Under the pieces are notes generated by a model that saw only the letters and a program-made list of their open reading frames with translations, was not told where the DNA came from and ran no database searches. The translations under genes and the position numbers were made by a program. DNA of 24,631 nucleotides from a virus: positions 1 through 24,631 of IMG/VR virus record IMGVR_UViG_3300046000_005672. One strand, written 5' to 3'. Position 1 is the first letter of the stretch. Each line of letters opens with the position of its first letter. This document shows positions 989-14,500 of the stretch, in pieces.

Positions 989-2207
989 ATTCTTTAAAAA
1001 ATTGCAGTGTAAAATCTTTTTTATTCATTACAGCCTTGTAAATATAAAACTCTATACCATTCTCGGCAAAAATCCAAAAGACATCATTTTTAAGCCTTTC
1101 CATCGTGCTAAGCCTGTCTCTGCTTTGCCAATATGATGTCGCTGAAAAATCAATATTTAAATATATCAAATATTTGGCGTTTTTCAAACTTATTCCTTCC
1201 CGACCTGAAACAATTTGTAAAGCGATGTTTTTATCGGTGCTGTCAAACTCCTCAACTGTATTACATAAGTTTTCACCAAATACTTTTTTTAATAGGTTAT
1301 ATTCTTCTTTGAACTTGTAAAATATCCCTATTTTAACTCCAGAAAACCTTTCTTTTATAAACTCGGCTTTTGAATAATCTATAATCATAGAATTACCGCT
1401 TTCAAACTTTACTGTTCCGCTATAAAGCTGGTGTACCTTACTCATTAGCTTTACCCCTGTGTCCGCCAATATTACTTCCTGCTTACCCTCTATTATTAAA
1501 TCTTTTTTAAGCTTATTAATAATATTGTATGTCTGCTGCTTCATTTTTACGGTTAATACATTTTCCTTAACCTCCGTTGTAAAGCCAGCCTGCTTTTGCG
1601 TAAAACTTATAATATAAGGACTAATGTACTTTTGTATCAATTCTATATTGGCATCGCTGTAATCGTTTAATTCACCGTAAGATACATATTTCTTTTTTAC
1701 TGTTACAAAGTCATTAGCCCATTTATAAAAGTTTTTATAATTATTAAAAGGGCTATAATCAGAAACTGCAAATTGGTGATAAATCTGCGAATATGATTCT
1801 GGGCAAATTGTACCGGAAAGGAATATCATTGGCAAATGTGAAAACTTTTCCTTAATAAATTTTGTAGCAATATTCATTTTTGGATATGCTCCGTTCCTGT
1901 GATGCTCATCAGAAATAAGTAAATCAAAATCTTTGTCAGTTACTTTATGTAATGATTCATTATTAATAATTTGAATTTCAAAAGTATGCCCAAAGCTTTT
2001 GTAATCACTTTCTATTGACCCAATTGCTTTTTTCTTTGTCAAAAATAAAACCTTTTTAGCTCCGTAGTTTTTAGCTACCTCTAATGAAGTACAAGTCTTT
2101 CCTGTTCTAACTTCCATGTTAAGGTAAACAATCTTTTTGGCTTGTAATATATTTAAAGCCTTATTTGCTATTTCCTGCTGGTAATCTCTTAATTTAAAAT
2201 GGTGCAT
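963..2207 (-). CDS. SF2 (SNF2-like) DNA helicase
   Basis: ATP-dependent helicase/translocase of 414 residues. Motif I is VRTGKT (about residues 33-38), motif II is DEHH (about 100-103) and motif III is the unusual SGT (about 131-133). Near the C-terminus are motif V-like SGREGISLKNA and motif VI-like YWQSRDRL, where the arginines would contact ATP. The opening KLRDYQQEIANKAL is a Q-motif-like start. I chose the ATG at 2207, 14 nt inside the end of the primase gene; an earlier TTG at 2345 would overlap that gene by 152 nt. It lies between a primase-helicase and a VRR-NUC nuclease, so a role in replication or recombination is likely. No nuclease domain is fused to it. Confidence 0.9.
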   Translation of the reverse strand: MHHFKLRDYQQEIANKALNILQAKKIVYLNMEVRTGKTCTSLEVAKNYGAKKVLFLTKKKAIGSIESDYKSFGHTFEIQIINNESLHKVTDKDFDLLISDEHHRNGAYPKMNIATKFIKEKFSHLPMIFLSGTICPESYSQIYHQFAVSDYSPFNNYKNFYKWANDFVTVKKKYVSYGELNDYSDANIELIQKYISPYIISFTQKQAGFTTEVKENVLTVKMKQQTYNIINKLKKDLIIEGKQEVILADTGVKLMSKVHQLYSGTVKFESGNSMIIDYSKAEFIKERFSGVKIGIFYKFKEEYNLLKKVFGENLCNTVEEFDSTDKNIALQIVSGREGISLKNAKYLIYLNIDFSATSYWQSRDRLSTMERLKNDVFWIFAENGIEFYIYKAVMNKKDFTLQFFKEYVRKQYTS

Positions 2208-4524
2208 CTTCCAATGTATTAACGTCTGTAACCATGAACCACCTTTCGCCCTGTGTATTTCCTTCCGAAAATATAAATCCTTTGTAATTTGAATACTTTT
2301 CAACCCAAATATGAAATCTTTTCCTTGATAGTTTTTTGTAGTCAATATATTCGTTCACAAATGCTTCATAAGCTTTGCCCTTATTATTTCGTGTATTGCT
2401 CCTAAAGTTTTCGCTATCATTGATCCATTCGTAAAACTCCATTGAAGTCTCTGCGATAAATTTTCTTAGCTTGATGTTCTTGGCATCCTGTTGCATCAAT
2501 CCATCTCTTAAATACGATTGCAAGCAAAAAACCATGTAATTATCAAAATGAGTAAAATCATTGACTGTCCAGTCGTCAAAGATTTGTCTTTTGAATTCAT
2601 CAAAAGGAGTGTTTTTCTTTCCGTAATGCTGGGCAAATTCTATCTCAAATCTTCTTCTGTCATGGCTATTTCCCTCTCCTTTTATTGCATAGTTGGTGCT
2701 GATTACCATTTTCGGGCTTTCCTTAACTGTTAACTTGATTGCATCCTTGTTCTTTCGTTCCAATGTCATGCCTTCAGTAACAAGACTAAATTTAGATTCA
2801 AAGTTAAAATTCTTAACTACGTCATCAAAAACAAGGATTTGAGTGTCTTGCTGAACTGTTTGGTATGGAAAAGACTTCTTGTCATCAAAAGTTTTACCAT
2901 CCAATATGGCAACATTTCGGATCTGTTTAATGCCCTGAATAAATAAACCTTTGCCAGTTCCGCCCTCTGGGTTTTCGCTTATTACTTCATCGTTTAATAT
3001 TATAGCCTTATTATTGGTATTGTCCTTATAAGTACTAAGTAGATACCCAATTACAGATTCTATTGATTTATCCTTACAAATATTGTTTATAAAGCTTTTG
3101 TAATCATTCTCATAATTCAATGTCCTTTTAAACTCTCTATTAATTATTTGGTTTCTCCAGATATATCCATCAATATCAATGTAATCTTTTAGTTCTATTT
3201 TGTCTCCTGTTACTTCTAATATGCCATTTCTAAATGCTATGTAAGATTTGTCTTTTTCATCTTTGAGCATCATTAATTCAATGGTGCTTAACATAGTCAG
3301 GTAATCATCCGAAAATAACTTAGAGGAAGTGCTGCAATAGTTCCATACTTCGTTCTCTCGCTTGCTTAATAGATATTCTAATACAAAGTCCTTAATCTTG
3401 TCTGATGAAGTCTCCTCGACCTTGTTTGATTCAATATAAACCAATGTAGGATTATTTGATTCATGCGGGAAAAATTTTTTGTACCCATGCCTTTCTAAAA
3501 AATTCTTAAACAGCAAAGAATCTATTTTTAATTTTGGTTTTTTCTCTTCGGTATAATACCAAAAGAAGTCATGATCAACTTCCTCTTTAATTTCGGTGTA
3601 GGTAGAATCGTCAATGCCAAACTTGTTTATAATTTCATTTTTCTTTAAGTCTTTAAACGAACTTTTGATTTTATTAATCTTCTGCTCATTTTCAAAGTAC
3701 TTTGTTCCAAATGTCATCTTTTTGTATGCGGACCGAATTGCAGTTATAGCCTCTTTCTCTGGAAAGTCTCCAATAACAATATTGTTGTTAATATATCCAA
3801 TAGCATAATCTTGGCTTACTCCATATTCACAAAAAGCACAAGCTAAAACGTAAATATTTTTATTTCTTTCGCCAGCAACAAAACCATATTTTGCATCCCA
3901 CCATTTCATTAAACGATTTACTATTTCTTCTTCACTATCAATCGGGAGCAGAGGAACTTTCTCTGTCATTTGATAGCCTTCATCGTTTTCAATGTTGCAT
4001 TCAAATACTTTGGCATTTGGATTATAATATAATTCAGGATCATAAGATTCAAAACATACCCTATCAATGTTTGAGCAAGCCGAATCGAAGTAATCGTAAT
4101 TGAATTTATTTTCAAACCCCTTAAAATACTTTTTGTGGCTTTCCTTATTTGCCTCTGGAATTTTAAAAACAGCTTTTAAGCCATTACCTCTCGGACTTTT
4201 AAATATTAAAGTAATATGCTCATTCTGTTTTAATATTTCTTTAAATGATTTAATCTCATCCAATGGTATTCCATCAAAGTCAAGAACACAAAGCCCTGAA
4301 TGCTTAATTAAGGAGTTTGAGTTTCTTTCCGAAAAATTGCCAGCAAAAAGAATACAAGGTAAAGTTAGTTTTAACTTCTGCTTTGTCTCTTTATCTTCGG
4401 CATCTGCGATGGCTTGAATTGTTGCAGCGGAGGATCCGTTTTTTATTCGGTCTATTACCTTTTCCATGCTTACATGGTAAGGTACATCCTTACTCCCGTA
4501 AAGTGTTTTAAAAATAGTTATCAT
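2194..4524 (-). CDS. Primase-helicase: BT4734/VirE-like PrimPol domain plus SF3 helicase
   Basis: A 776-residue replication protein. The N-terminal ~170 residues resemble the BT4734/VirE N-terminal (archaeo-eukaryotic primase-like) domain: LDFDGIP with the metal-binding DxD at residues 82-84, SPRGNGLK at 110-117, and a third motif around Asp147-Arg155. A linker/helical region follows (about 200-290). The C-terminal half is an SF3 (D5/DUF5906-type) helicase with Walker A GGTGKG at 521-526, Walker B ILVFDD at 563-568, sensor-like KMVISTNY at 605-612 and an arginine cluster HDRRR at 621-625. It probably primes and unwinds phage DNA. No DNA polymerase is encoded in this window, so the phage may use the host's. 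It is the first gene after the repeat-rich gap at 4525-4800. Confidence 0.92.
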   Translation of the reverse strand: MITIFKTLYGSKDVPYHVSMEKVIDRIKNGSSAATIQAIADAEDKETKQKLKLTLPCILFAGNFSERNSNSLIKHSGLCVLDFDGIPLDEIKSFKEILKQNEHITLIFKSPRGNGLKAVFKIPEANKESHKKYFKGFENKFNYDYFDSACSNIDRVCFESYDPELYYNPNAKVFECNIENDEGYQMTEKVPLLPIDSEEEIVNRLMKWWDAKYGFVAGERNKNIYVLACAFCEYGVSQDYAIGYINNNIVIGDFPEKEAITAIRSAYKKMTFGTKYFENEQKINKIKSSFKDLKKNEIINKFGIDDSTYTEIKEEVDHDFFWYYTEEKKPKLKIDSLLFKNFLERHGYKKFFPHESNNPTLVYIESNKVEETSSDKIKDFVLEYLLSKRENEVWNYCSTSSKLFSDDYLTMLSTIELMMLKDEKDKSYIAFRNGILEVTGDKIELKDYIDIDGYIWRNQIINREFKRTLNYENDYKSFINNICKDKSIESVIGYLLSTYKDNTNNKAIILNDEVISENPEGGTGKGLFIQGIKQIRNVAILDGKTFDDKKSFPYQTVQQDTQILVFDDVVKNFNFESKFSLVTEGMTLERKNKDAIKLTVKESPKMVISTNYAIKGEGNSHDRRRFEIEFAQHYGKKNTPFDEFKRQIFDDWTVNDFTHFDNYMVFCLQSYLRDGLMQQDAKNIKLRKFIAETSMEFYEWINDSENFRSNTRNNKGKAYEAFVNEYIDYKKLSRKRFHIWVEKYSNYKGFIFSEGNTQGERWFMVTDVNTLEDAPF

Positions 4525-4627
4525 TGTTAAAATTAAAATTTAAAAAATAAAAATATACCTTTTTAGGTAAAATTAAAAATAGAATTACTTAAAAAAATAT
4601 CAAATGTGTTGCGTGATACACTTCCAA

Positions 4628-4651
4628 AACACTTTAAAAAAATAAAGTGTT
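4628..4651. repeat. Short hairpin, 9-bp stem with 6-nt loop
   Basis: AACACTTTA at 4628-4636 is the exact complement of TAAAGTGTT at 4643-4651, separated by six A residues. The arms echo the nearby GTGTTGC motif. It lacks a clear downstream U-tract in the minus direction, so it does not look like an intrinsic terminator. It is more likely a binding site or part of an origin structure. Confidence 0.6.
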
Positions 4652-4698
4652 GTTTATAACTATCTAATTTATAATAAGTTATAAGCTCCGCAACACTT

Positions 4699-4793
4699 GC
4701 AACACATTGAAAACCGATTTTTTGTAATTTTTATTTTTTTCATTTTTTCCGCTAAAGCAGTATATAGAGATACTTTTTTTTTCAATGTGTTGC
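4699..4793. repeat. 15-bp perfect inverted repeat around a 65-bp spacer
   Basis: GCAACACATTGAAAA at 4699-4713 is the perfect reverse complement of TTTTCAATGTGTTGC at 4779-4793. The match stops cleanly on both sides. The repeat contains the GTGTTGC motif that recurs at 4606-4613 and 4689-4696. A 15-bp perfect match is not expected by chance within 100 bp, even in AT-rich DNA. It could be paired sites for an initiator or repressor, or the arms of a large cruciform. Confidence 0.75.
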
Positions 4794-4800
4794 GTTTGCA

Positions 4801-5124
4801 TCATGCTTTCAACTTGTATTTAGTTATTAAAGCATTCCAATCTTGCTCAAAACATTGCTGCTCCAATCTTGATAATTCTCCTGTTGCAATCAAGATATTA
4901 TACATTTGTTTATGCCATACCGTAAGATTCACAAGCTGGTCAACTGCTCCTTCACTCCCAAGGTCTTTATTCATTAAAATCATAAGGTCTTCTAATAAGG
5001 CTTTGGCTCGCTGTTTTGTCTTCATCTTAAACAATCCTATGCCATCGTCAATTTCGTCTATCAGAGACTGGCTTAATAAGGCTAAATACATAAGCCTTTT
5101 GGCTTCTTCAAATCTGTCTTTCAT
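4801..5124 (-). CDS. Hypothetical helical protein (107 aa)
   Basis: Unrecognised, highly alpha-helical protein with no signal peptide, membrane span or metal-binding motif. It is rich in Leu, Lys and Glu and opens with a long amphipathic helix (KDRFEEAKRLMYLALLSQSL). I chose the ATG at 5124; a TTG at 5133 gives three extra residues. It overlaps the small upstream gene by 17 nt. Notably, the frame stays open for over 40 codons past its TGA (see findings). It is the last gene before the repeat-rich region. Function unknown. Confidence 0.7.
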   Translation of the reverse strand: MKDRFEEAKRLMYLALLSQSLIDEIDDGIGLFKMKTKQRAKALLEDLMILMNKDLGSEGAVDQLVNLTVWHKQMYNILIATGELSRLEQQCFEQDWNALITKYKLKA

Positions 5125-5292: not shown

Positions 5293-5616
5293 TTATATTA
5301 AAGACCCCAAATCATTCTGCATTTTTATTTGTTCAGCATAATTTTTTCGAACTATGTCAATATGAGCTAAAATTGATTTGGCAAATAACTCTAAATCATT
5401 AATTGGTGCATCAAACATTATTGTTTTTTCTTTTTCTTTACCAAATTCTATCCACAACCCAAAAATAGTTGCATCCATTTCTTCATTCATTTCATAGTAA
5501 AGAACTAAATCACGTGTGTCTGAATACACTTTTAAATTAATCCCGTTTTCAAAATCCGAACTTTCAAAGTTTTCAAAGTCAATTACACATTCTGTTAATT
5601 CAATTATGTTTGTCAT
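5293..5616 (-). CDS. Acidic hypothetical protein (107 aa)
   Basis: Unrecognised acidic protein, rich in Glu and Asp, with a predicted mixed strand/helix fold and a helical C-terminus. The start is fixed by an ATGA overlap with the end of the helix-turn-helix gene upstream, implying translational coupling. No catalytic motif or membrane segment is visible. Small acidic phage proteins in early operons sometimes act as DNA mimics or host-takeover factors; that is only a possibility here. Confidence 0.7.
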   Translation of the reverse strand: MTNIIELTECVIDFENFESSDFENGINLKVYSDTRDLVLYYEMNEEMDATIFGLWIEFGKEKEKTIMFDAPINDLELFAKSILAHIDIVRKNYAEQIKMQNDLGSLI

Positions 5617-5867
5617 TTGTTTAATAATTTATTATTCATTTTTAAAATTTCCTTTACATCTTCCCGAGCCAAAAAGACATTTGCCTTGTCTTTCATTTTT
5701 TGAGTTTTAAACACTGGCATCGACTGCTCCACCAGCATCTTGTAGAAGTAATGATAACTTATACCTGTATCATCAGCCAAACGTTTCATTGAAACCCCTT
5801 TTTTTATGAGTTCCATGTACTGATTAACTATTAATCGTACATCATCATTTATCTTATACTTTTTCAT
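5613..5867 (-). CDS. Helix-turn-helix DNA-binding protein (84 aa)
   Basis: A small basic protein whose residues 26-45 (VSMKRLADDTGISYHYFYKM) fit a helix-turn-helix: the 'ADDTGIS' turn followed by a recognition helix with aromatic residues. The rest is helical. It may be a transcriptional regulator of this phage, or an excisionase- or replication-type DNA-binding protein. It starts 4 nt after a TAATTTTG box and is coupled (ATGA) to the next gene. The GTGTTGC repeats 0.9 kb downstream would be a natural target to test. Confidence 0.7.
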   Translation of the reverse strand: MKKYKINDDVRLIVNQYMELIKKGVSMKRLADDTGISYHYFYKMLVEQSMPVFKTQKMKDKANVFLAREDVKEILKMNNKLLNK

Positions 5868-6172: not shown

Positions 6173-8398
6173 TTAAAATAAAGTTAAAATAGAATTATTT
6201 TCTTCAACACATTCTCTATGATTTTTCTCGTTAAGATTAAAATAGCTTTCTTTTAACTCAATTGATATTGATTTCCTATTCATCTTTAAAGCTTGAAAAC
6301 CTTCTGAACCAATCCCTCCAAATGGAGACAAAACTGTTTCTCCTTCGTTAGAATACAAATGTATGCACCTTTCAATCGTATCAAGTTGCAAAGGACAAAT
6401 ATGCTTTTCATCATTACCATCACGCCCAGAACGGTATTGCAATGTCCTAGAATAATCTATATCGTACCATACTGGAGAAGCATATTTTTGCCACAAATCA
6501 ACTGGCAAATAATTTGGCATATTTGAATCTTTGTCTTGGTGTTCTATTGGTATTAAATTTTCACCTTCATTTCTAAAAAATAATACATAATCAGGAATAC
6601 CAACACGGCTCATTGAGCTATCTTTTTTTATAGTCTTATGAAGTAGTCCTAATGCCTTTGTCCTTTGCATTTCTGTTACTGGATTCTTCCATATAGTAGC
6701 TCTTGAATGATATATAAATCCTTCATTTTGAAACCAATCAATTAGCATACCGCTAAAGTCACGAAGACCAATATAGCCTTCTTTACCCTTTTGTATTGGC
6801 AAATCCATACAATGCACAGCACAAATTCTACCACTCTTTAAAACCCTTTTTAATTCAGGAATAAGAAATTTAAAGTGTTTTTCAAATTCATTATAATCTG
6901 ATACATTACCCATATCATTAGGACTATCAGAATATACGTACAATTCAGCGAAAGGCGGAGAAAATACAACTAAGTCTGCTACATTATCATCTAGGTTTTT
7001 AGTCTCTTGAACGCAGTCACCATTTATAACATGATAGTTTTTTGTTTTTACGTTTTTCTTGTTTACCATAAATTTTGATTTATTTTGTTTATAATCTGTT
7101 ATTGATGAATACTTAGCCATTTCGCTAATCATATTCTTATGCTTTTGTTCTTTTTCTAATATTGACTTTCTTACATTTAATTGACTTTCAGGAACTAACA
7201 AATGAACTGTTACTTTCTTAGTTTGCCCAAAACGATATTGCCTTCTTACTGCTTGATAAAATGACTCAAACTTGAAATCATAAGAAGTAAATACCATATT
7301 AAAAGAGTTTTGATAGTTCATTCCAAATGAAGCAATTGAAGTTTTTGTTATCAAGCATTTAAATTCATTATCAGCAAATCCATTTAAATGTTTTGATTTA
7401 TACTCTGGACTATCAGAACCTTGAACATTTATGGAATTAGATATTTTTTTAGATAAATAATCCGATTCTTTATTCCTTAAACACCAAACTATCCATTGCT
7501 CATTTGAATTTTCAACAAGTTCAATAGTCTTTTCCATCCTCAAATCAAATGACCTATTAAGGTCTTGGTGTATATCAGTTGCTGAAACCGCAACGTGTCC
7601 AAATAATGTATTAGTATTATTTTCAACTGGTATCAAATGCTCTACAAATTCAATTTCAGGAAGTTCATATCCGCAACCATCAAATCCTAAAGTCTTAGGA
7701 TTATCTATTGATAAAGACCAAGAGCATACATATTTCCAAAATACATCAGTAGCGTGTTTTCTTAAACGCCATTTACTTGTTTCTCCTCCATCATGCACAA
7801 AAAACATAGCCAACATTTCTAAATAACTCATTGCACCCAAGAATTCACTATGTTGACCTAACTCCATGTGGTCATTTGGTGAAGGAGTAGCAGTACAAGC
7901 CAACTTATAAGGCGTATTTTTAAATGAAGATATGATTAATGAAGAAGTAGCACCATCTCTCCCTTTAAGTATAGAACTTTCATCCAATACCACACCAATA
8001 AACACGCTACAATCAATGTTTTTTAATTGGTCATAATTGCTGATTAAAATATTTGGTTGTTTTGCATCATAAATACAATCAAATTCATATTTATTTATTT
8101 TAATTCCGAATCTATTTCCTTGTTGGATAGTTTGATTTACCACAGCCAAAGGAGCTAAAATTAAAACAGGTGAGTTATATTTTTCTGTTAAAATTCTTGC
8201 CCATTCCATTTGCTGAAATGTCTTACCAAGTCCACAATCCTCAAAAAGAGCAAATCTACCCTTGCTTAAAGCTGTTTTAATTGCATACTTTTGAAAGTCA
8301 AATAATTTATCATTTAGTACTGATAAATCGACCTCAAATCCTGATTCAACAAAGTTTTTTATCTTTGTTTTTAGAAAATCGTCATAGGTTTGTTCCAT
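6173..8398 (-). CDS. SF2 helicase fused to a DNA amino-methyltransferase
   Basis: A 741-residue two-domain protein. Residues ~30-440 form an SF2/SNF2-like helicase: Walker A DCGLGKT (54-60), DEAH-box variant LDESS (138-142), TATP motif III (169-172), motif V ITKTSIASFGMNY (350-362) and motif VI QAVRRQYRFGQ (382-392). Residues ~455-725 form a class-beta-like methyltransferase: SPPF catalytic motif IV (480-483), followed much later by the SAM-binding motif I SPFGGIGSEGF (691-701). Motif IV before motif I is the beta-class order, and S/T-PP-F/Y can mark N4-cytosine or N6-adenine enzymes. No nuclease domain is visible. It probably modifies phage DNA, perhaps while translocating, to avoid restriction. 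It is the first gene after the terminator/promoter pair. Confidence 0.9.
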   Translation of the reverse strand: MEQTYDDFLKTKIKNFVESGFEVDLSVLNDKLFDFQKYAIKTALSKGRFALFEDCGLGKTFQQMEWARILTEKYNSPVLILAPLAVVNQTIQQGNRFGIKINKYEFDCIYDAKQPNILISNYDQLKNIDCSVFIGVVLDESSILKGRDGATSSLIISSFKNTPYKLACTATPSPNDHMELGQHSEFLGAMSYLEMLAMFFVHDGGETSKWRLRKHATDVFWKYVCSWSLSIDNPKTLGFDGCGYELPEIEFVEHLIPVENNTNTLFGHVAVSATDIHQDLNRSFDLRMEKTIELVENSNEQWIVWCLRNKESDYLSKKISNSINVQGSDSPEYKSKHLNGFADNEFKCLITKTSIASFGMNYQNSFNMVFTSYDFKFESFYQAVRRQYRFGQTKKVTVHLLVPESQLNVRKSILEKEQKHKNMISEMAKYSSITDYKQNKSKFMVNKKNVKTKNYHVINGDCVQETKNLDDNVADLVVFSPPFAELYVYSDSPNDMGNVSDYNEFEKHFKFLIPELKRVLKSGRICAVHCMDLPIQKGKEGYIGLRDFSGMLIDWFQNEGFIYHSRATIWKNPVTEMQRTKALGLLHKTIKKDSSMSRVGIPDYVLFFRNEGENLIPIEHQDKDSNMPNYLPVDLWQKYASPVWYDIDYSRTLQYRSGRDGNDEKHICPLQLDTIERCIHLYSNEGETVLSPFGGIGSEGFQALKMNRKSISIELKESYFNLNEKNHRECVEENNSILTLF

Positions 8399-9723: not shown

Positions 9724-10236
9724 TTATTTAAATTGATTAAATTCGAAGTGCATACCAAAAATAGGTCTTTTATGTTTTATGGACCAGCTAACAGAACCTG
9801 AACCTAAGTTTAATTTTCTTGATGCTTCAGATTGTGAACCATAAATCACTCCAGTTTCTACACAAATAACAGACATGCTTCTATTATGGTCTTTTCCAAA
9901 TTTGCCTTTATAATGCAAAGGTTTATATTTCTTTAATCCCATACTATATGCATGTTTAATGTTTTCAGACTGTGTATTCCATTCTAAATTTTTTAAACTA
10001 ATATCTGTTTTAATTCCGTTTTTATGATTAACAAAATCTTTGCCTTTTACATGAGGAATAAATGCAAAAGCTATCGCCCTGTGAGTAAAATAACTTTTAT
10101 TTCTAATATTGACAAAATAATAGCCACTATTTGATATAGATTTTTTTAATATCTTACCTTTTGGGCTTTTTATGTCTCCGTATTTATTTACCAAATAATC
10201 TTTTGGCAAGTAATTTGTTTGTATAAAATTTTCCAT
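9724..10236 (-). CDS. HNH homing endonuclease with NUMOD domains
   Basis: A 170-residue free-standing HNH endonuclease. The N-terminus (YLVNKYGDIKSPKGK, about 14-28) resembles a NUMOD4 segment. The HNH_3-type core includes THRAIA with His52, VNHKNGIKTD with Asn70-His71, and the LKNLEWNTQSEN segment (81-92). The C-terminus (about 123-157, TGVIYGSQSEASRKL then SVSWSIKHK) is a NUMOD1 DNA-binding helix-turn-helix module. Such enzymes nick or cut related phage genomes lacking the insertion and spread themselves. It splits the lysis cassette between endolysin and holin, and has a promoter-like box 3 nt before its ATG. It ends exactly at the holin start. Confidence 0.92.
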   Translation of the reverse strand: MENFIQTNYLPKDYLVNKYGDIKSPKGKILKKSISNSGYYFVNIRNKSYFTHRAIAFAFIPHVKGKDFVNHKNGIKTDISLKNLEWNTQSENIKHAYSMGLKKYKPLHYKGKFGKDHNRSMSVICVETGVIYGSQSEASRKLNLGSGSVSWSIKHKRPIFGMHFEFNQFK

Positions 10237-10285: not shown

Positions 10286-10750
10286 TTATAAGTGCAATAT
10301 TTCCCAATGCATTGCATCAAACCCTTTTTCTTTCCCTTGATTTATAAAGCCATTTTTATAGTAAATATCTATCATCGGCTTATATTCCTGTTTAAAAAAT
10401 TGTGAATTTTTCCACGTCATTTTCAACCCGTTCTTAATCGGATTTAAATCTTCTGCAATGCCCCAGCTATGCCTTGACCAGTCTGATCCGCCTCTCATTT
10501 TACGGAAATTATAACACCCACCAAAAATATCAATCTCCAGCCTCTTAATCTCCTCAATGCCGTAATGCTCCAATATCTCGGTGTGAATCTTTTGAAACAC
10601 TGGAGCAACTAATTTGTGACATTGCATCTTATTGGTAAGTGCCTTTAAATCCCAAGCAATACGCCTTGAATATGGCATAGTAACAGTGATTAAGTTCCTG
10701 TCATCTCCTGCTTTGCCAAAGATTGATATTATTTGTCGAGTGCTTAACAT
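10286..10750 (-). CDS. M15-family peptidase endolysin
   Basis: A 154-residue zinc peptidase of the D-Ala-D-Ala/L-Ala-D-Glu carboxypeptidase M15 (VanY-like) fold, which cleaves peptidoglycan peptide stems. The motif SRHSWGIAEDLNP places the first zinc ligands at His94 and Asp101, and MHWE at 147-150 gives His148 with catalytic Glu150. There is no signal peptide, so export would rely on a holin, candidates for which lie downstream. It is TAATG-coupled to the upstream gene. Length and motifs fit a single-domain phage endolysin; there is no separate cell-wall-binding domain. Confidence 0.9.
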   Translation of the reverse strand: MLSTRQIISIFGKAGDDRNLITVTMPYSRRIAWDLKALTNKMQCHKLVAPVFQKIHTEILEHYGIEEIKRLEIDIFGGCYNFRKMRGGSDWSRHSWGIAEDLNPIKNGLKMTWKNSQFFKQEYKPMIDIYYKNGFINQGKEKGFDAMHWEILHL

Positions 10751-11511: not shown

Positions 11512-14500
11512 TTATAATGTTAAATAACTTATTCCTCCTGATAATAAAGTGTTTATTTTTTGCAAAACAAAAGCACTTTTGCTTCCATCGTATGTTATTA
11601 ATATTTTATCTCCATTTGCTGGTGTATAAGGTCCTCCTGCAAAATCTGACAAAGCTAACTTAAAAGGTGTACCTGATATATTTACTAAACTCGTGCTTGT
11701 AGGTCCAATGTTTATACTTGCTGAAACCAAATTTAATATACCTGCATAAAAATCCATTGAAACATTAGAGGCAGCAGTTAAGCGAATACTTTCAGGTGAC
11801 CCATTTAATTGAGAAACCCCTGCTAGATTACCAATACTTTGATTGTTTTGCGATGTGAAAAACACCCCTCCGTTTTTAATAACAAGATTTTTATCAAATG
11901 CCGTATTTCCAGCCGCTAAAACTTGGTCAATATTCCCAATACTAACGCTTGGTATTGCTTGGGTGGATAAAACACCAGTTGCATCAGCTACAACCATTCT
12001 TGTGCCTGTTCCTGACAAACTACCAATAATTGTACTTGTTCCATACAAACCTACACTATCTTCAGATAGAATCTGTATTTTTGAAGTTGATGTTAAACGT
12101 AATCGATCTAATGTTAAAAACTGATTATCGTAATATAATTTTCCTTTTTCCACTCCGTTTCGATAGAACATTATTGCCGCACTGTCAAGTACACTGTTTG
12201 TGCCGTTTAATATTATCTGCTTATTTATTGCAGAATTACCGACTCCCAAAACATCATCTAAATCTTGCGTGCCACCGCTAACAGTTGTCCATGTCGGATT
12301 TGCTGAATCCCCTTGACTTGTTAAAACTTGCCCTGCCGTTCCTGGAAGATTATTAAGCAAAATACGACCCAGAAAATTGTGGTTTGACTGTGAAACAACA
12401 CTTCCACCACCGCTCATAATTTTCAATTCAAGATTTCCACCGTGAACATATAGCCCGTAGTTGCTTGAACCAACATATCTGGCTACTTCCATTTTGCTTG
12501 TAGTACCTTCTTTGATAGCGATAATCCTGTCGGATTCAAATACAAAGTTTTCACTGCTTGTCAAAAGGTTTGAGCCACTTCCAAACCCGATTCTTGTACT
12601 TGTAAGTGTAGGTGCTGGCAATGTCGCCCAAGTTTGGTCACCTCTCAAGAAAGTTGTTGCTGATGCCGTACCTGAACCCAAGCGAGCCTGTGCAATAACA
12701 CCAGAAACAATATCCACTGCTGCGTGTGTGTGAACAGTTGGAGCAGCCCCTATCTCACCAAGTGTCCAAGCTACATTTCCACTTCCGTTAAAAGTTTTTC
12801 CTGTAGTGCCTATGGTAAATGTCCTTGCCGTTGTTAATGTCGCTGCCGACCCCGTAATACTTCCCGAAGAAGTTATAAATCCTGATGGATTACTTGCGTT
12901 GTAAGGTGTAAAGCCTAATGCTGTAGTTACTTGAAGAGAAGTAATGTTTGTTAAATATGTCGCAGTGTCTAAAACAAAAGTATTGGCAGCGGTCTTTCTA
13001 AGTAACCCAGTTGTACCTGTCAAACCAGCTATTGAGGTTAAATCTTCATCTAAAGGTTGTATGCCTGATTCAGCTAAGGTACTATTAATCCATGCTGTAC
13101 CATTCCATCTTAATAATTCCCCAGCTGAATTACTTGTAATCGTTACGTTTGAGTGGCTATCCAACGTATGTGCTGATGGTGCAAACGTTGTAGGCACTCC
13201 AGTAAGCTTTGTCCAAGCCAATGATGTTATCCATGACGGGTTTACGTAGCTCCCTGTTAAAGACACAAATCTTGCATCTGATTCTGACTTGGTATAAGCA
13301 TCCGTTATGGCATAGCCTGCTAAAGTTGTTGGATTCGTTCCTGATGTTACTAATCCTTTTGCATTGATTGTAACACTTCTGTACGTTCCTTCGGTGGCTA
13401 CGTTTGCAAGTGTCAAAGCAATTGATGTCGTTCCTGATCCATTAGCATCTCCCGTTATTGATATGCTTTGGTTTGCCGTTAAATAATTATTGGTATCTAA
13501 TGACCAAGTATTTGCTGCGGTCTTTCTTAGTATTCCACTTGTTCCTGCTAATGCTCCAATGGCTTGCAAGTCCGCATCATAGGCTTGAACGTCTGTACCT
13601 ATCACTAAACCAAGTGAAGCTCTACCTGTTGCAGCAACTAATCCTGTTGCCCCGCCATCCCATCTATTTCTTTCGGCAAATGCAGTATTCCAATTATCTG
13701 AATTATTAGTTACATAAGTTATTGTTCCAGCAGTTGACAATACTAATCCTGTTCCGCTTAATGTGGCTTGTTTACTATCTAATGCCGTTTGTAATCCTGA
13801 TGTCTTGGCAATGCTTAAAGCTGCATCGGCTATTGCTGTCGTTATTGCTGTAGTTCCTGAACCTGTTACAATACCACTTAAAGTAATGGTTTGATTACCG
13901 CTTATGTAAGTAGGTGTGAAATATTCTAATGCCGTTGCACCTGCATTAACTCTAAGTATTTGGTTTGCTGTACCTAATGCTGTTAACCCTGTGCCTCCTC
14001 TTGTAGTTGCTATTGCGGTGCCGTTCCAAGTTCCTGCTGTTATTGTACCTAACGTTGTTATGCTTGTAGAACCTGCCCAACTACTAAGGTTTGATATATC
14101 ACTTGTCGTTACAGAACTCCAAACACTTGTACCGTTAACGTTATTGCACTTCAAGAAACTGCCAACTGTCGCCCCCCCTGTAATTAATATACTTGTTGTC
14201 CTTATTGTTCCCGAAACATCAAGTGTATAGGCTGGAGTTGTTGTATTAATTCCTACAAAACCACTATTGGCAATTCTCATTACTTCCGTTCCTACTGCTT
14301 TAGTTCCGTGTGCTCCAACGTAAAACTGATGCTGTGTTGCTGGTTCTGCTAATCCTGTACCTCCTCCATATTGTATTGTATTGTTATTAATGTTCGCACC
14401 AAATATAAAACCAGTCATACCGTTATTGGTATAACTACCTCCTATAATTCTGAATGCTCCAGTTGTGTTAATTGTTTCCGAATGTCTTAATATAATTCCT

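Follow-up and report, generated by a model that had tools for sequence, protein, structure and literature searches.

A probable phage replication origin built of inward-facing iterons beside a primase-helicase gene, with iterons that vary together with the C-terminal domain of the enzyme

Among the satellites known as phage-inducible chromosomal islands (PICIs), which include the Staphylococcus aureus pathogenicity islands (SaPIs), the SaPI Rep protein recognises its origin through its C-terminal domain (PMC7581432). We have analysed a cluster of short repeats in a gene-free gap of a 24,631-base virus record (IMG/VR record IMGVR_UViG_3300046000_005672, positions 1 to 24,631, hereafter the window). 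This gap is very probably the replication origin of the phage, or one of its origins, bound by the adjacent initiator, a protein that combines an archaeo-eukaryotic primase (AEP), a superfamily 3 (SF3) helicase and a winged helix. The element resembles the origins of SaPI5, SaPIbov1 and the E. coli PICIs, which are served by Rep or a fused Pri-Rep, in its repeat plan, and the model of its primase-helicase resembles the SaPI5 structure 7ola. However, PICI origins lie directly 3′ of rep while the element is located 5′ of the primase gene in the window and in most related lineages. PICIs and SaPIs are satellites, whereas the loci studied here are phage contigs, the window itself encoding large structural and tail-like genes. 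Its iterons moreover measure ~10–13 bp and face inward, and the core of most relatives contains C and G tracts.

Four other systems share part of this organization. The alpha protein of phage P4 likewise unites primase, helicase and a C-terminal winged-helix origin-binding domain, and this domain (1ka8) is among the fold matches described below, but the P4 primase is of the Toprim type (PMC4234260) and that of the window a BT4734-type AEP. ORF904 of plasmid pRN1 has the same domain order as our primase (AEP primase, SF3 helicase, winged helix), and pRN1 also carries a long inverted repeat with a ~60-bp loop by the gene and fast-changing arms, as here (PMC4234260). In contrast, pRN1 has a single long stem-loop without iterons, situated 3′ and proposed to act as such, while the element described here has tandem, extra and mixed iterons, suggesting sequence-specific binding. 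In the putative origin of Cch2 from the staphylococcal cassette SCCmec, the isolated C-terminal domain binds short iterons beside the gene (PMC7581432); there, the iterons are direct repeats of AAGTG, two separate proteins make up the primase and binding did not need the inverted repeats. Finally, in the PLE satellites of Vibrio cholerae the DNA-binding domain of the RepA_N initiator varies together with the iterons of the origin, the two being swapped as one module (PMC8263062), a behaviour reminiscent of what is reported below, although RepA_N proteins are predicted to be without primase or helicase activity and have an N-terminal DNA-binding domain. A literature search found no description of this phage replicator family.

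All substantial genes of the window are on the minus strand. The gap and its parts are as follows; L001–L007 are seven near-identical phages which retain all of them, apart from a damaged fourth iteron in L001.

2194–4524, minus strand: primase-helicase of 776 aa, the proposed initiator, whose 5′ end adjoins the gap
2197–2484, minus strand: codons 681–776, predicted winged-helix domain (96 residues), proposed to bind the iterons
4525–4800: gene-free gap; on one side the primase starts at 4524 (minus strand), on the other a 110-aa open reading frame (ORF) ends at 4801
4603–4613, minus strand: fourth iteron, CGCAACACATT, mutated in L001 and otherwise kept
4614–4688: second AT-rich spacer, from the double iteron to the fourth iteron
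4626–4652: 9-bp hairpin (arms 4628–4636 and 4643–4651), AACACTTTA / TAAAGTGTTG, read as two degenerate inverted iterons
4689–4697, plus strand: tandem second iteron abutting the inner arm, CGCAACACTT; relatives typically have two iterons on this side
4698–4713, plus strand: inner iteron, second arm of the inverted repeat, GCAACACATTGAAAA
4714–4778: AT-rich core of 65 bp with 15 G/C, proposed DNA unwinding element
4779–4794, minus strand: outer iteron, one arm of the 15-bp inverted repeat, CGCAACACATTGAAAA, kept in L001–L007

Read on the minus strand toward the primase, the order is thus CGCAACACATTGAAAA, the core, TTTTCAATGTGTTGC, AA, GTGTTGCG, 75 bp including the small hairpin, CGCAACACATT and ~80 AT-rich bases before the primase ATG. 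A sequence-only reading of the window had pointed out four copies of GTGTTGC in a +,−,−,+ arrangement and a perfect 15-bp inverted repeat with a 65-bp spacer, and both hold. The four copies (4606–4612, plus; 4690–4696 and 4699–4705, minus; 4787–4793, plus) compare with two in the rest of the 24.6-kb record, at 14334 and 20742, and GTGTTGCG occurs three times in the whole record, each time inside the gap. The Poisson probability of four copies within 190 bp is ~8e-9 per window of that size, or ~2e-6 over the record. The inverted repeat (4699–4713 / 4779–4793) scores 10 standard deviations above dinucleotide shuffles of the same 450 bp and ranks best, among repeats with a 45–100 bp spacer, across 10.5 kb around the primase. 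Short repeats clustered by the initiator gene and an AT-rich unwinding region at or between them characterize iteron origins, and the gap has both, the AT-richness of the core being kept in relatives; on the minus strand the window core contains CTATATACTGC, the counterpart of CTATATACCC in those relatives. The 9-bp hairpin is also present as had been noted, but hardly as an element of its own. One of its arms reads CAACACTTTA on the minus strand, which is the iteron of the nearest relative, L095 (GCAACACTTTA; 70% primase identity), and it is therefore most likely a worn pair of iterons. A 24-codon ORF within the core (MKKIKITKNRFSMCC...) was discarded because its start codon is lost and its frame broken in the sister phages L003, L004 and L006, so that coding does not account for the gap, in keeping with the original observation that no gene explains the repeats.

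Searches with the primase yielded ~90 loci, forming 43 lineages at 90% identity and coming mostly from Flavobacteriaceae where the host is named. Most lineages have an inverted repeat in the gap beside the primase, with a spacer of typically 65–85 bp; when located 5′ of the gene it is significant (p ≤ 0.02 against shuffles) in 19 of the 43, where 0.86 would be expected. The arm sequence differs by lineage (GCAACACATT, AGTACACATT, AGTCAACATT, AGCAAACATT, AAAGACACATT, GTGCGAAGTT, GAACGAAGTT, GGGCGAAGTT, ACGCAACGA, CGTGACAACC and more), the outer letters of the iterons being variable and the inner ACATT or AAGTT more constant. Conservation in similar phages, whose absence the sequence-only reading would have taken as a refutation, concerns the geometry, inward-facing iterons around a 65–85 bp AT-rich core, and not the letters of the motif, which vary together with the C-terminal domain of the primase. 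In most lineages the core runs TTTCCTATATACCC ... AT-rich ... TATAGGGGGG; a single iteron flanks it on the side of CTATA, and the G side usually has two. A core profile built from 17 lineages matches 29 of the 43 (62 loci), always beside the primase, and it found no match away from the primase in 0.92 Mb. The window, L095 and L102 have significant inverted repeats without matching the profile; counting them, the element is present in at least 32 of the 43 lineages. When the core pattern was run over 2.9 million viral contigs, 18 of its 24 matches lay directly 5′ of this primase and two were truncated copies of the element; the remaining four were chance-like. The exact inverted-repeat pattern had nine matches among viral contigs, of which two (L017, L018) fall within a gene that codes for protein in an unrelated phage and were ascribed to chance. 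A nucleotide search in annotated phages gave no match, and no clear element was found near the primase of the distant cultured relatives elemovirus, Panino, P12024L and BT-TP2, whose primases are only partially similar. In MW202828.1 (42% identity) a similar element can be seen by eye, its TATCTATGT arms lying 101 bp from each other and enclosing runs of C and of G; its score is unremarkable.

The primase-helicase comprises a BT4734-like AEP primase, PriCT_1, a D5/SF3-like helicase core with GGTGKG and a predicted C-terminal winged helix, the latter being the most likely binder of the iterons. Iteron distance between lineages correlates with the distance of primase residues 681–776 when the rest of the protein is controlled for (partial 0.41, p 0.0002), while residues 191–420 have no positive link (partial −0.32). 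The correlation peaks at residues 721–770, or at 717–776 when automatically extracted arms are used (0.33, p 0.002). GAAGTT iterons require four changes on a tree of residues 1–680, at least three of them forced by well-supported branches, and one on the C-terminal tree; for AACATT iterons the numbers are three and one. Since each type forms a single clade in the C-terminal tree (support 82/83 for GAAGTT and 94/88 for AACATT) and is scattered in the tree of the protein body, the tail domain and the iterons appear to have been exchanged together. Two positions (window numbering) are candidate specificity residues by this comparison: at residue 735, where the predicted recognition helix starts, 5/5 GAAGTT lineages have N and nearly all others K, and at residue 761, which is part of the wing, Q is confined to the three AACATT lineages.

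Structure prediction gives a winged helix for the C-terminal domain, with a predicted local distance difference test (pLDDT) score of 88, and VIA-align lists the P4 origin-binding domain 1ka8 (Z 5.8) and RFX1 among its matches, both within Z 5.8–6.4. The basis for this fold is the predicted secondary structure together with VIA-align scores that are middling (Z 5–7); Foldseek with the domain alone returned nothing at E ≤ 0.001. The whole-protein model resembles the SaPI5 primase-helicase (7ola), poxvirus D5 and African swine fever virus PrimPol (AsfvPrimPol), and a PDB sequence search with the primase profile found no relative. The tail domain of African swine fever virus C962R has been described as winged-helix, like P4 and RFX1 (PMC10516667).

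In the best-supported reading, the primase-helicase would grip the inward-facing CGCAACACATT iterons via its C-terminal winged helix and helicase rings would assemble on both sides of the core, as in structural relatives. The 65-bp AT-rich core between the iterons would then be melted, helicase and primase loaded and priming started. By binding the iterons nearest to its gene, the initiator may in addition act as a repressor of its own promoter. The present analysis provides the anatomy, the conservation and the exclusive gene linkage, and it shows that neither orientation nor side is fixed and that iterons and C-terminal domain evolve jointly; from the relatives SaPI Rep, Cch2 (PMC7581432) and pRN1 (PMC4234260) we infer binding, ring assembly, melting and priming.

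Several observations weigh against an origin of this kind. The window's own core is degenerate, having lost the C/G tracts of most relatives, and does not match the core profile, so that the membership of the window rests on position, iterons and phylogeny. The iteron types were assigned by hand and eye, albeit without reference to the protein. The N-terminus of the primase also correlates with iteron type, more weakly (partial 0.30), as do the first 60 residues of the next, downstream helicase (20-lineage control); the C-terminus is thus not the sole signal, as expected if blocks of DNA were exchanged. Mixed iterons occur with nearly identical primases, L105 and L110 having AGTACACATT on one side and GCAACACAT on the other, and iteron specificity is therefore not strict. 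The GC skew, suggested beforehand as possible support for an origin, offers none: there is no turn at 4.6 kb in the window, nor at the element of the complete relative MW202828.1, where the minimum is found at a gene-strand switch. Of the two readings offered from the sequence alone, that of an origin is strongly supported.

Among phages with near-identical primases (L105, L106, L110, L115, L122, L123, L126) the inner iteron swaps between AATGTGTACT and AATGTGTTGC. It seems that one initiator accepts both types or that two binders exist.

The best-surviving alternative is an origin of the pRN1 type, in which an extruded hairpin (cruciform) would be recognised by its shape and the letters of the arms would matter just for pairing. 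pRN1 indeed has a ~100-bp stem-loop (21-nt stem, 58-nt loop) with a fast-changing stem by its AEP-SF3-winged-helix gene (PMC4234260), and the arms in the window are perfectly complementary. However, two tandem copies usually lie on one side and extra copies outside the hairpin, arms of differing iteron types pair imperfectly in L070, L105 and L106, and pairing alone does not explain why the arm sequence tracks the predicted DNA-binding domain of the protein. We consider such a mechanism unlikely.

A transcriptional operator is less probable still. The repeats would then bind a repressor, either the primase itself or the 84-aa helix-turn-helix (HTH) protein encoded at 5613–5867 that the sequence-only reading had proposed, and control transcription of the primase operon. 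The usual position 5′ of the primase would suit this role, as would a Bacteroidota-type promoter (TATATTTGCA-like) which follows the inner iterons in many relatives. Yet homologues of the HTH gene are restricted to the window's own species cluster, whereas no fewer than 32 of the 43 lineages have the element, and the gene is absent from L008, which has the same iterons and 6 kb of upstream sequence; the HTH version was rejected on this lack of co-occurrence. Furthermore, most lineages have the element 5′ of the primase in forward orientation, but four (L071, L072, L085, L086) have it 5′ and flipped, and in three (L010, L099, L103) it lies 3′ of the primase, between the primase and helicase genes. 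This disfavours a promoter, operator or leader RNA, which would be tied to one side and one direction, as a replicator need not be. Another cis-acting phage site, for packaging, partition or attachment, would likewise be gene-free and repeat-rich but is most improbable for an element that accompanies the primase gene wherever it is located and co-evolves with its predicted DNA-binding domain.

The surroundings of the element have features of their own. No known RNA family was detected in the window or its neighbours at gathering threshold. About 17 lineages (L008, L031, L047, L044, L045, L062, L069, L075, L081, L091, L090, L092 and others) have a putative H-type pseudoknot RNA in the interval between element and primase start, within the last ~120 bases before the ATG. 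Its stems are wholly different yet complementary (for example GTGGTAG/CTACCAC, GCTCAAC/GTTGAGC, ACTTCGACA/TGTCGAAGT, GGTCTGAC/GTCAGACC); it beats dinucleotide shuffles, had no Rfam match where tested and is absent from the window. It could possibly act on the primase as a riboregulator. In many relatives the gene lying 5′ of the element (L008 4988–5659) belongs to phrog_6706, of unknown function, and its product terminates with acidic residues (DDLxF) in the manner of a single-strand-binding protein; the window has the unrelated 110-aa ORF at this place. Elsewhere on the minus strand, the window encodes a 741-aa fusion of an SNF2-like helicase and an N6/N4 DNA methylase (6173–8398) and an HNH/NUMOD4-type homing endonuclease (9724–10236) next to an M15 peptidase endolysin-like gene (10286–10750). 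HNH endonuclease genes also occur beside the element itself, between element and primase or just upstream, in L059 (425–796) and L094 (2181–2681), one of them NUMOD4-HNH, and in L034 and L078 inspection by eye places NUMOD4-like ORFs next to the primase. Homing or attack may be directed at the origin region.

Taken further, these loci could represent a large and hitherto undescribed family of replicators in phages, chiefly of Bacteroidota. Iterons and C-terminal winged helix would be swapped together as a cassette that sets specificity, against a constant geometry and enzyme, giving many origin-specificity groups; we regard this broader proposal as having about an even chance of being right. 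If true, such swaps could free a phage from interference, whether this comes from coinfecting relatives, from satellites or from nucleases that cut origins. The element described here would also carry the layout of two groups of iterons flanking an AT-rich core beyond the satellites, its supposed limit. Origins of uncultivated phages are seldom identified, and here they would be predictable from sequence in dozens of lineages, together with a named candidate binder. The set of lineages would provide a natural code linking a winged-helix domain to its DNA site, and the element might offer a replicator for Flavobacterium vectors.
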